64,000 nucleotides of DNA from Candidatus Thiothrix sulfatifontis (GTDB taxonomy: Bacteria; Pseudomonadota; Gammaproteobacteria; Thiotrichales; Thiotrichaceae): assembly GCA_022828425.1 (NCBI GenBank), contig CP094685.1, positions 1,922,001-1,986,000 on the forward strand, in the 5' to 3' direction. Positions 1,660-57,149 of the stretch are shown in pieces. The notes under the pieces were generated by a model, which did not search any database, was not told the origin of the DNA, and was given only the letters and a program-made list of their open reading frames with translations. Made by a program: the position numbers and the translations under genes. How positions within the stretch are numbered: the first letter of the stretch is position 1; each line of letters begins with the position of its first letter.

Positions 1660-2151
1660 GTGGTTGATTTTATGAAACAAATTAAGGTTTTATTCGTTTG
1701 CATGGGCAATATCTGTCGTTCACCCACGGCGCAAGGCGTGTTCGAGCGTTTGGTGCAGGCGCAAGGCTTGGCAGATCGCATTCTGATTGATTCGGCGGGC
1801 ACACACGCGTACCACATCGGCAGTTCCCCGGATAAGCGGTCGCAAGCAGCGGCAAAACATCGTGGGCTGGATTTATCGGGGCAGCGAGCACGTAAAGTGA
1901 CCGCAGCCGATATTGAGGAATTTGATTATGTGCTGGCAATGGATCGTGCAAATTTAGAGGATTTACAGGATTTGGTTGTGGCGTCACCGCCTGAACGGGT
2001 GCGCTTATTCATGACGTTTGCCGAACGTTGGAAGGTCGACGAAGTGCCTGACCCTTATTACGGTGGGGAAAGTGGTTTTGAGCGCGTATTGGACATGGTA
2101 GAAGATGCGGCGGCAGGTTTGTTAGACCATATCCGCCGCCATCATTGCTAG
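1660..2151 (+). CDS. low molecular weight protein-tyrosine-phosphatase
   Basis: Arsenate reductase-like phosphatase that removes phosphate from tyrosine via a cysteinyl-phosphate intermediate. The CX5R P-loop is near the N-terminus (VCMGNICRSP) and the general-acid loop DPYYGG is near the C-terminus. The long frame opens with GTG at 1660 (163 aa); ATG at 1672 (159 aa, MKQIKVLFV) fits the family length better and is probably the true start. It is a lone gene convergent with rne, whose stop is only 20 bases away. In other bacteria such enzymes often act on exopolysaccharide tyrosine kinases, but no such kinase is in this window. Confidence 0.9.
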   Translation: MVDFMKQIKVLFVCMGNICRSPTAQGVFERLVQAQGLADRILIDSAGTHAYHIGSSPDKRSQAAAKHRGLDLSGQRARKVTAADIEEFDYVLAMDRANLEDLQDLVVASPPERVRLFMTFAERWKVDEVPDPYYGGESGFERVLDMVEDAAAGLLDHIRRHHC

Positions 2152-53596: not shown

Positions 53597-54472
53597 ATGG
53601 CAGAAAACGCAACTTCCCCGTACATTTTTGAAGCGACCGCGCAGAATTTCCAGCAGATTATGGACAGTTCATTCCAAGTCCCGATCTTGGTGGATTTCTG
53701 GGCGGACTGGTGTCAACCCTGCAAAACGCTGATGCCGATTTTGGCGAAATTGGCAAACGAATACCAAGGCGGTTTCATTCTGGTGAAGGTCAATAGCGAC
53801 CAACAGCAGCAACTCGCCACCCAATTCGGTGTACGCAACTTGCCGACCGTCAAGGTCATCAAGGATGGCAGAATCGTGGATGAATTCACGGGGGTACAGC
53901 CAGAGTCTGAAATCCGCAAACTCATCGACCGCCACCGCACGCGCAAAACTGAGCCGTACCGCCAGCAAGCACTGGAAATGTACAACAACGGTGATTTGCC
54001 GGGCGCAACGCAGTTGATGGAACAAGTGGTGCAACACGAGCCGGATTTCTACGAAGCCGTGGTGGAACTGGCGGGAATGCTGATTCAGCAAGAACGTGCT
54101 GATGAAGCCGAAGTATTGTTGCAAAGCATTCCGCCGGATGCGATCGACAACCAAATCCTCAGCCAACTGTTGGCGGATGTGAAACGTGCCAAATTGCAGG
54201 CGCAAGTGGTTGGTGTGGACACGTCAGCACTGGAGCAGCGTTTAGCGGAAAATCCTGACGACCTTGCGACCATGTTGGAACTTGCCAAAATCCGCGTGGC
54301 GATGGATGAGGTCGAAGCGGGTTTGGAGCTGTATTTTGCTGTCCATAAGAAAGATAGCAGCTTCGAGAATGGCGCGGGTAAGCAAGGGCTGTTCAATACG
54401 TTTGAATTGATCGGTTCGGGCAATCCGTTGGTGAAAAAGTATCGTAATAAATTGTTTGCGTTGCTTTATTGA
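53597..54472 (+). CDS. ybbN: thioredoxin-TPR co-chaperone YbbN/CnoX
   Basis: 291-residue chaperone-holdase. An N-terminal thioredoxin fold (about residues 8-115) has the active-site motif WADWCQPCK; unlike E. coli CnoX, whose motif is SxxC, both cysteines are here, so redox activity is plausible. TPR repeats follow (ALEMYNNGDLPGATQLMEQV, YEAVVELAGMLIQQERADEA, LATMLELAKIRVAMDEVEAG). It lies just upstream of grpE-dnaK-dnaJ, in line with a protein-quality role. Confidence 0.93.
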   Translation: MAENATSPYIFEATAQNFQQIMDSSFQVPILVDFWADWCQPCKTLMPILAKLANEYQGGFILVKVNSDQQQQLATQFGVRNLPTVKVIKDGRIVDEFTGVQPESEIRKLIDRHRTRKTEPYRQQALEMYNNGDLPGATQLMEQVVQHEPDFYEAVVELAGMLIQQERADEAEVLLQSIPPDAIDNQILSQLLADVKRAKLQAQVVGVDTSALEQRLAENPDDLATMLELAKIRVAMDEVEAGLELYFAVHKKDSSFENGAGKQGLFNTFELIGSGNPLVKKYRNKLFALLY

Positions 54473-54504
54473 TATTTCCTGCCGTATTGCTGGCATTTTT
54501 CGGG

Positions 54505-54539
54505 TGTCGCCCTTGAAATCCCCAAACTAAACCCTACTT
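54505..54539 (+). promoter_or_regulatory. sigma-32 heat-shock promoter of grpE
   Basis: TGTCGCCCTTGAAA (54505-54518) matches the extended sigma-32 -35 (T-TC-CCCTTGAAA) completely. After a 13-base spacer comes CCCTACTT (54532-54539), six of eight to CCCCATTT. Transcription should begin near 54545-54548, about 32 bases before the grpE ATG, in the left arm of the inverted repeat at 54540-54570. Confidence 0.82.
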
Positions 54540-54570
54540 TCCACGGCGAAATGATTTTTATCGCCGTGGA
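54540..54570 (+). promoter_or_regulatory. 10-bp inverted repeat over grpE start site and ribosome site
   Basis: TCCACGGCGA (54540-54549) and TCGCCGTGGA (54561-54570) are perfect inverse copies with 11 bases between. The Shine-Dalgarno GGAG (54568-54571) is in the right arm, seven bases from the ATG at 54579. No T run follows, so it is not a terminator. It could be a DNA operator (a CIRCE-like position, different sequence) or an RNA stem hiding the ribosome site in read-through transcripts. Confidence 0.75.
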
Positions 54571-54578
54571 GTAGCACA

Positions 54579-55127
54579 ATGAATGATCCCAAAGACAACA
54601 ACCTGCAAGACGCAGCGACAAACGATGCTGAAGACGCTGTGATGGACGTGATGGACATTGAGCCATTAGACACTGATACCTTGCAAATTGAACTCGACAA
54701 AGCCAAAGCGGAAGCCGCCGATAACTACGAACAATTGCTGCGAGCGCAAGCGGAAATGGCGAATCAACGCCGTCGTTTTGAAAAACAAATTGAAGACGCG
54801 CACAAATATTCTGCCCAAAAATTCCTCGAATCTATCATTCCGGTGATTGACAGCTTGGAAATGGGAATGCAAGCGCAAGGTGACATCGAGCAAATTCGCG
54901 AAGGCATGGCGCTTACCCTCAAGCAGTTTGAAACCGTCATGGAAAAATTCAACATCACTTCGATTGGCAAACCCGGTGACGTGTTCAACCCTGAACACCA
55001 CCAAGCCATGTCGATGCAGCCGCACCCTGAGTTCGACAACAATACCTTGTCGCTGGTCATGCAAAAAGGTTACTTGCTGAACGGTCGCGTGGTACGCCCT
55101 GCGATGGTCATGGTTAGCAAAAAGTAA
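54579..55127 (+). CDS. grpE: nucleotide exchange factor GrpE
   Basis: 182-residue homodimeric co-chaperone that releases ADP from DnaK. An acidic, disordered N-terminus (about 1-28) is followed by a long coiled coil (LQIELDKAKAEAADNYEQLLRAQAEMANQRRR) and the beta-wing domain with the family end GYLLNGRVVRPAMVMVSKK. The start is ATG 54579. It has its own sigma-32 promoter and lies upstream of dnaK. Confidence 0.97.
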   Translation: MNDPKDNNLQDAATNDAEDAVMDVMDIEPLDTDTLQIELDKAKAEAADNYEQLLRAQAEMANQRRRFEKQIEDAHKYSAQKFLESIIPVIDSLEMGMQAQGDIEQIREGMALTLKQFETVMEKFNITSIGKPGDVFNPEHHQAMSMQPHPEFDNNTLSLVMQKGYLLNGRVVRPAMVMVSKK

Positions 55128-55146
55128 AGATTCTGTCACATCGGCT

Positions 55147-55173
55147 CTTGAAAACGGGCAGTTAGCCCCACAT
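55147..55173 (+). promoter_or_regulatory. sigma-32 heat-shock promoter of dnaK
   Basis: CTTGAAA (55147-55153), a 12-base spacer and CCCCACAT (55166-55173) match the sigma-32 consensus. It lies about 60 bases before the dnaK ATG, between grpE and dnaK, giving dnaK-dnaJ an independent heat-shock start. Confidence 0.82.
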
Positions 55174-55232
55174 AAACAAGCCAACTGACAACATTCGTAT
55201 TAGCCCTACAAAAAGCATTCTGGAGAGACACT

Positions 55233-57149
55233 ATGGGAAAGATTATCGGTATTGACTTGGGTACAACTAACTCTTGCGTGGCGGTCATGGATGGCGACAA
55301 GCCCCGTGTTATCGAAAACGCAGAAGGTGATCGTACTACCCCGTCGATCATTGCGTTCATGGAAGACGAAGTGCTGGTCGGTCAAACCGCTAAGCGCCAA
55401 GCCGTCACCAACCCAGAGAACACCCTGTACGCGATTAAGCGTTTGATCGGTCGCCGTTTCCAAGAAGATGCGGTACAAAAAGACATCAAACTCGTGCCGT
55501 ACAAAATTGTCCAAGCCGACAACGGCGATGCGTGGGTAGACGTGCGCGGCAAGAAAATGGCCCCGCCAGAAATTTCCGCCCGCGTGCTGATGAAGATGAA
55601 GAAAACCGCTGAAGATTTCTTGGGCGAGCCTGTCACCGAAGCGGTTATTACTGTTCCGGCTTACTTTAACGACTCGCAGCGCCAAGCCACTAAAGACGCG
55701 GGCAGAATTGCCGGTTTGGAAGTCAAGCGTATCATCAATGAGCCAACCGCCGCTGCACTGGCTTACGGCATGGATAAAGCCAAAGGCGACAGCAAAATTG
55801 CCGTTTACGACTTGGGTGGCGGTACGTTTGACGTATCCATCATCGAAATCGCCGACGTTGATGGCGAAATGCAGTTTGAAGTATTGTCTACCAACGGTGA
55901 CACTTTCCTCGGTGGCGAAGACTTCGACATGCGCTTGATTGACTATCTGGCAGACGAATTCCGCAAAACCAGCGGCATTGACCTCAAAGGCGATGCACTG
56001 GCGATGCAACGTCTGAAAGATGCGGCAGAAAAAGCCAAGATTGAGTTGTCAACCAGCCAACAATCGGATGTGAATTTGCCGTACATTACCGCTGATGCGA
56101 CTGGCCCGAAGCACTTGAATATCAAAGTGAGCCGAGCCAAGCTGGAATCACTGGTGGATGATCTGATTGAGCGCACCATGGCACCGTGTAAAATTGCGCT
56201 GAAAGATGCAGGTTTATCTGCTGCACAAATTAACGATGTTATTTTGGTCGGTGGTCAGACCCGGATGCCTAAAGTGCAAGAAGCGGTGAAAAACTTCTTC
56301 GGCAAAGAGCCACGTAAAGATGTGAATCCTGATGAAGCGGTTGCTGTTGGTGCCGCGATTCAAGGCGGCGTATTGGGCGGCGGCGTTAAAGACATTCTGT
56401 TGTTGGACGTTACCCCACTGTCATTGGGTATCGAAACCCTTGGCGGCGTTATGACCAAGCTGATCCAAAAGAACACCACGATCCCCACCAAGGCATCGCA
56501 AGTGTTTTCGACCGCTGAAGACAACCAAACGGCTGTGACCGTGCATGTGCTGCAAGGTGAACGTGAAATGGCGCGTGACAACAAGTCACTGGGTCGTTTC
56601 GACCTGCAAGACATCCCACCTGCACCGCGTGGTATGCCACAAGTAGAAGTGACGTTTGACATCGACGCGAACGGCATCTTGAACGTTGGCGCGAAAGACA
56701 AGTCTACCGGCAAGCAGCAAACCATCGTGATCAAGGCTTCTTCCGGCTTGTCCGATGCTGAAGTCCAGCAAATGGTGAAGGATGCGGAAGCGCACGCGGA
56801 AGATGACCGTAAATCTCGCGAATTGGTCGATGCGCGTAACCAAGCCGACAGCATGATACACGGCACGGAAAAGTCACTGAAAGAGTACGGTGAGAAAGTG
56901 GATGGCGCATCGCGTGCTAACCTCGAATCCCTGATCAGCGAATTGCGTGATGCGATTAAAGGCGACAACAAAGACGTGATCGAGCGCAAGTCCGAAGCGT
57001 TGATGGAAGCATCTGGCAAGCTGATGCAGCAAATGGCGGGCGGCGCAGACGGCGGCGTTGAGCCGGGTGCAGGCGCACAAGCCGGTGGCAAAGCGGGCGA
57101 TGACGACATCGTTGATGCTGAATTTGAAGAAGTCGATGGCAAGAAGTAA
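55233..57149 (+). CDS. dnaK: chaperone protein DnaK (Hsp70)
   Basis: 638-residue Hsp70. The ATPase domain starts [20 protein letters not shown] and contains the phosphate loops [13 protein letters not shown] and [11 protein letters not shown]; the linker [13 protein letters not shown] and substrate domain follow, ending in a disordered tail with EEVDGKK. A GGAGAG ribosome site precedes ATG 55233. It is preceded by its own sigma-32 promoter and followed by dnaJ. Confidence 0.99.

Follow-up and report, generated by a model that had tools for sequence, protein, structure and literature searches.

Is grpE of Candidatus Thiothrix sulfatifontis translated from every messenger that carries it, or chiefly from the one that starts at its own heat-shock promoter? 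The question arises from the grpE leader, in which a sigma-32-type promoter is followed directly by a perfect inverted repeat that reaches into the Shine-Dalgarno (SD) sequence, and we addressed it within a 64-kb window (the whole stretch of DNA analyzed, 64,000 nt) from a 3.69-Mb, single-contig genome. The genes along the locus run in the order DUF945 gene, ybbN-like gene, grpE, dnaK, dnaJ, and dapB-like gene (ybbN and dapB being the names that we presume for these two neighbors), and the features are collected in Table 1. Among the grpE loci compared, the closest named relative by GrpE is Thiothrix fructosivorans (95%).

Table 1. Features of the grpE leader and of related sites (window positions unless a contig or locus is named).
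Feature	Position	Strand	Remark
ybbN-like gene, thioredoxin domain and TPR-like part	53597..54472	+	upstream neighbor of grpE here
Weak terminator-like stem and T run, 5′ of the promoter	54480..54495	+	
Sigma-32 −35 element CTTGAAA	54512..54518	+	conserved in 16/16 genus genomes
Sigma-32 −10 element CCCTACTT	54532..54539	+	CTAC at 54534-54537 within the element
Inverted repeat, left arm TCCACGGCGA	54540..54549	+	outer half upstream of the predicted RNA start
Predicted sigma-32 RNA start	54545..54548	+	54547 by E. coli numbering (excerpt of PMC10216364)
Loop AATGATTTTTA	54550..54560	+	11 nt
Inverted repeat, right arm TCGCCGTGGA	54561..54570	+	
grpE SD, GGAG	54568..54571	+	7 nt 5′ of the ATG
grpE	54579..55127	+	ATG at 54579
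Second, separate sigma-32-like promoter, 5′ of dnaK	55147..55173	+	12-nt spacer
dnaK	55233..57149	+	
Perfect CIRCE sites	G000:C1:1233012-1233038 (L140), G000:C1:2693834-2693860 (L141)		before rpoH and groES
L051 repeat	about 1870-1914		before grpE, promoter-straddling
L066 repeat	about 1840-1881		before grpE, promoter-straddling

Promoter and inverted repeat of the grpE leader

The genome contains rpoH, and the grpE promoter (54512-54539) agrees with the sigma-32 rule applied here (CTTGAAA, a spacer of 11-16 nt, and CCCCATNT), matching CTTGAAA at 7/7 positions and, after a 13-nt spacer, carrying CCCTACTT, which matches 6/8 positions of CCCCATNT (N counted as a match). Each of the 16 genus genomes examined has CTTGAAA and a C-rich −10 element before grpE, and a sigma-32-like promoter was found by rule in 76 of 80 grpE regions from the class (the best 80 of 145 class genomes). 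A site similar to the one before dnaK is present in 15 of the 16 genus genomes. In the excerpt of the E. coli sigma-32 cryo-EM study that we drew on, CTTGAA is numbered from −35 to −30, and −12/−11 is the C/A step of the −10 element (PMC10216364); both landmarks, as given in that excerpt, place +1 near 54547, which falls in the left arm of the repeat (54540-54549). A prior reading of this DNA, made from the letters alone (hereafter the sequence-only reading), had described a promoter followed by the repeat, with transcripts starting near 54546; the arms lie exactly where it put them, and its start agrees closely with the one predicted from the excerpted numbering.

The two 10-bp arms are 100% complementary and form the sole inverted repeat of at least 8 bp detected within 60 nt across positions 54300-54800. 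Three of the four letters of the SD fall in the right arm. The fourth letter (54571) is outside the arm and finds its partner in the −10 element, where the stem continues past a TT bulge as CTAC (54534-54537) paired with GTAG (54571-54574), beyond the 10 bp previously described. Dinucleotide shuffles of 54530-54620 fold far less stably as RNA than the real sequence does (z −3.86, with 0/200 as good). The window as a whole contains 17 matches with an arm of at least 10 and a loop of 3-20, versus a first-order random mean of 2.0, corresponding to 10 distinct places by manual count, and since perfect repeats of such size occur at 10 places the grpE repeat is unremarkable by itself. What is unusual about it is its position and its conservation. 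We rejected a reading of the repeat as a terminator, there being no T run 3′ of the stem. Terminator-like sites number three in 1 kb versus 1.7 expected in this genome, including the weak one upstream of the promoter.

Predicted folding of read-through and promoter RNA

In the T. sulfatifontis sequence, opening the SD is predicted to cost 10.4 kcal/mol in read-through RNA and 1.7 kcal/mol in promoter RNA (start set at 54545, the −10 end +6). When the start was varied, the cost went from 8.3 kcal/mol at 54540 to 0.8 kcal/mol at 54543 and was at most 1.8 kcal/mol through 54548; because every start from 54543 to 54548 gives an open SD, the SD-open form does not depend on the exact base. Prediction thus bears out the proposal, made in the sequence-only reading, that the SD is free in sigma-32 RNA and hidden in read-through RNA, and by the energy model the leader shares a property of the phage T4 gene e case, an SD closed in the long RNA and open in the short one.

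The same pattern was predicted in 15 of the 16 genus genomes, with costs of 6.9-12.6 kcal/mol for read-through versus 0.8-3.4 kcal/mol for sigma-32 RNA (start at the −10 end +6) and a difference of 4.1-10.9 kcal/mol (start equivalent to 54545), values that come from one lineage and so are not independent cases. The exception is L017 (read-through 1.7, sigma-32 RNA 0.2 kcal/mol). With the start at the −10 end +8 (54547), the difference is at least 4 kcal/mol in 14 of the 16 genomes and goes down to 2.6 in L011. Including 120 nt of upstream RNA in the fold lowers it to about 3 kcal/mol in L010. Shuffles confined to the upstream DNA matched the real read-through opening cost in 0-21 of 200 trials across the 15 hairpin genomes. 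Mean SD accessibility, a weak and softer measure after which the opening cost was used, was equaled by shuffled upstream DNA in 0-28 of 100 trials in the same genomes, and since it is below 0.1 also in 5 of 28 family genomes it does not single out the genus.

Beyond the genus, a difference of 4 kcal/mol was reached in 0 of 76 class regions (mean 0.35, largest 3.2 kcal/mol; 80 upstream regions taken best first from 145 grpE matches, with G000 and G060 excluded and the other 4 regions having no promoter by rule). It was reached in 2 of 28 family genomes (L136 and L129; 28 of 36 loci analyzed, the other 8 being without a clear promoter or start, or near a contig edge) and in 2 of 70 loci from other gammaproteobacteria (L066 and L051, with L055 rounding to 4.0). 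The latter set derives from 80 loci, less seven (L019-L025) whose GrpE is 72-95% identical, which left 73, 70 of them analyzed; it overlaps with the 76-region set, in that L050/L144 and L079/L151 give identical numbers. Other sigma-32-like promoters of the T. sulfatifontis genome were compared as well (28 motif matches, of which 11 were taken and 9 gave a gene start, grpE included), and the largest difference among the eight computed was 3.0 kcal/mol, with 0.1 at dnaK (L236), 1.6 at L231 (presumably clpB-like), and 1.9 at L237 (presumably htpG-like).

We give about an even chance to the grpE repeat being a promoter-dependent translation switch that uses the mechanism of T4 gene e, a reading that combines the sequence, the fold model, and analogy with the phage. 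RNA entering from upstream would contain the whole repeat and would form a stem of 10-14 bp that closes the SD; a transcript that sigma-32 initiates near 54547 would be without the outer left arm and CTAC, and its SD would be free. GrpE would then come mainly from its own heat-shock promoter, with read-through from any upstream gene largely silent for GrpE. The effect on translation we infer from T4, and the mechanism presumes that useful amounts of poorly translated read-through RNA exist. As a sigma-32-like site also precedes dnaK in 15 of the 16 genomes, such a lock would affect GrpE more strongly than DnaK.

History of the hairpin and its upstream neighbors

The repeat was expected before grpE in close relatives by the sequence-only reading, and it is there in 15 of the 16 genus genomes and absent from the sister lineage L017. 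In a tree of GrpE and partial DnaK (26 rows, 16 from the genus and 10 from the family), the 15 hairpin genomes lie on one side of a branch with L017 as their sister (support 94/96, just below the tool's star), and the hairpin looks like a single gain. Loop and arms are conserved together in the genus alignment, and 93.8% of cells in the stem columns are paired versus at most 61.0% when the bracket line is slid; covariation in the stem showed no excess over the shuffle control (91/500 as high). The left arm is altered in L011-L016, whereas changes in the right arm are limited to L010 and L011. Outer left-arm changes in L012, L013, L014, and L016 retain pairing via G-U, L011 has an outer mismatch, L013 and L014 have a mismatch in the inner stem, and the inner stem is shortened in L015. 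In genus g8 of the family (loci L099-L103), the first transcribed stretch after the grpE −10 element is TTTCAGGCGATT-like at 5 of 6 loci, and no right arm matching this left-arm-like start was seen at the 6 loci, which suggests that the left arm may be the older of the two and that a right arm was later matched to it.

Promoter and hairpin have stayed with grpE whichever neighbor lies upstream. This neighbor is a ybbN-type ORF in 8 of the 15 hairpin genomes (L002-L009; L002 and L006 were read as protein and the other six called by ORF length and place), and hrcA in L012, L015, and L016; L013 and L014 have a CBM9-domain gene in this place and L011 a carboxylase-type gene. The earlier account of read-through from ybbN agrees with the prediction in its consequence, closure of the SD by the hairpin, and is too narrow in its source, with ybbN upstream in only 8 of 16 genomes. 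A codirectional gene is found upstream in 14 of the 15 hairpin genomes. The remaining one, L010, has no such gene in the 1.5 kb examined and has instead an oppositely directed Gp49-family (Gp49/HigB-like) gene, with promoter and hairpin intact and with what we take to be an IS30-like element (transposase) beside grpE.

The grpE −35 element falls within the last codons of hrcA, at the 3′ end of its coding sequence, in L015 and L016; the element begins 9 nt past the upstream stop codon in L013 and L014. L013-L016 leave no room for a terminator, so upstream transcription can hardly end before grpE in these genomes. Terminator-like stems do occur 5′ of the promoter in L005 and L011, with the weak one in T. 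sulfatifontis, and these would lower read-through.

Competing explanations and known systems

The main rival, in our view an unlikely one, is a private (single-target) DNA operator, at which a protein bound to the palindrome over +1 would block the promoter in the manner of LacI on its main operator. The palindrome is centered at 54555, about 8 bp past the predicted start and hence in a usual place for an operator, its arms and loop are conserved jointly, and L010 retains it without a codirectional upstream gene. Against this, the asymmetric arm changes cost dyad symmetry yet often keep G-U pairing, and no regulator is linked to the repeat. Nor is the repeat CIRCE or a CIRCE variant, a candidate that we rejected on sequence and spacing: the genome has HrcA, and a search of it for TTAGCACTC-N9-GAGTGCTAA with at most 3 mismatches found two perfect sites, neither of them at grpE. 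Their place before rpoH and groES weakens the CIRCE-like operator offered as the alternative in the sequence-only reading, as does the absence of close reuse of the grpE repeat. Only two further places in the T. sulfatifontis genome resemble the repeat, each with 3 mismatches, and across the 16 genus genomes the matches elsewhere are limited to 11 places, again with 3 mismatches each (reversed control, 5); the same search recovered the grpE site in 14 of the 16, missing L016 because of its 10-nt loop, and L017 has none. A multi-gene operator or repeated element was accordingly rejected, more than one close copy per genome not being found. The perfect CIRCE site before rpoH indicates that HrcA probably represses the gene for the heat-shock sigma factor itself, and an excerpt of work on Geobacter sulfurreducens likewise reports a CIRCE site before rpoH (PMC545781).

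Less probable again is that the sigma-32 RNA is where the element acts, either through shielding of the messenger from decay by the inner stem (GGCGA/TCGCC) at its 5′ end or through help from the leader in promoter escape or translation. Hairpins of the ompA type at the 5′ end do shield their messenger in this way, a start at 54545 would leave a 5-bp terminal hairpin, and the GGCGA-like start without a right arm in genus g8 means that the left arm may be conserved independently. A start at 54547, however, would leave only about 3 pairs, L013 and L014 have a broken inner stem and L015 a shortened one, and this reading leaves unexplained the CTAC/GTAG pairing and the outer left arm, both outside the sigma-32 RNA. 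We put lower still the prospect of a functionless coincidence, in which a C-rich −10 element and discriminator pair with a G-rich SD through composition: shuffled upstream DNA closes the SD fairly often and covariation is not above control, but a perfect 10-bp stem has been kept along the lineage, and the difference of at least 4 kcal/mol separates 15 of 16 genus genomes from 0 of 76 in the class (best 80 of 145). A heat-shock gene with a hairpin that closes its SD also calls to mind an RNA thermometer in which heat melts the stem and opens the SD. We consider this very improbable and rejected it on the model, as the predicted opening cost of the read-through RNA goes from 11.6 kcal/mol at 30 °C to 10.0 at 42 °C and is 7.7 even at 60 °C, while the model has the sigma-32 RNA open at every temperature tried. 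Rfam had no relevant family at the hairpin, giving a single chance-level match to an unrelated family at 55130-55195.

A second candidate for the promoter-dependent switch comes from L051 and L066, whose nearly identical leaders have an unlike repeat (TTGTTCT..CAGA/TCTG..AGAACAA) with the left arm just past the −10 element, and in both of which the gene directly upstream of grpE is, we presume, hrcA-like. Before the predicted start is reached, their predicted opening cost has dropped from about 10 kcal/mol to about 3, the same predicted switch, and if not due to chance this repeat would be of independent origin. Somewhat tentatively, we regard it as possible that grpE of Thiothrix has acquired a phage-style lock, whereby read-through RNA carrying grpE (first from hrcA, later from unrelated neighbors) would make no GrpE, GrpE would answer to sigma-32 alone, and dnaK would keep its own sigma-32 promoter, with a second origin in other sequence in L051 and L066, from a gammaproteobacterial lineage unrelated to Thiothrix. 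If promoter-dependent translation does operate at grpE, the cell would insulate a core chaperone cofactor from its neighbors' transcription, and where read-through is frequent, counts of grpE RNA would suggest more GrpE protein than is made. The grpE leader would also offer a simple two-transcript case in which to ask whether the choice of start site alone sets the translation of a heat-shock gene. Our literature search, mostly of open-access sources, recognized nothing on Thiothrix heat-shock promoters or on a grpE read-through hairpin.

The leader shares traits with several known systems. CIRCE of HrcA is likewise a palindrome between the promoter and the start codon of a chaperone gene, although it differs from the grpE repeat in sequence and spacing. 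The ROSE and fourU thermometers are SD-closing hairpins on heat-shock genes, whereas the grpE hairpin is too stable in the model and has no Rfam match. Promoter-dependent translation itself is known from transposons, as in IS10/Tn10, where read-through RNA hides the transposase start and RNA from the element's own promoter does not; there it guards a mobile element against arbitrary neighbors, whereas grpE is a fixed housekeeping gene. It is also known from phages, and in T4 gene e (lysozyme), as well as soc, 49, and I-TevI, the SD is closed in early read-through RNA and free in late-promoter RNA, which for gene e is without the 5′ part of the structure, lysozyme synthesis differing about 100-fold (PMC3014915). 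Gene e and grpE are alike in that an internal promoter yields, or for grpE is predicted to yield, RNA without the 5′ strand of a hairpin whose right arm lies over the SD, in that the long RNA is silent and the short one translated (for grpE, would be so), and in that the structure is kept in close relatives. In contrast to gene e, grpE is a chromosomal chaperone gene read by a heat-shock sigma factor, and its switch is a predicted one.
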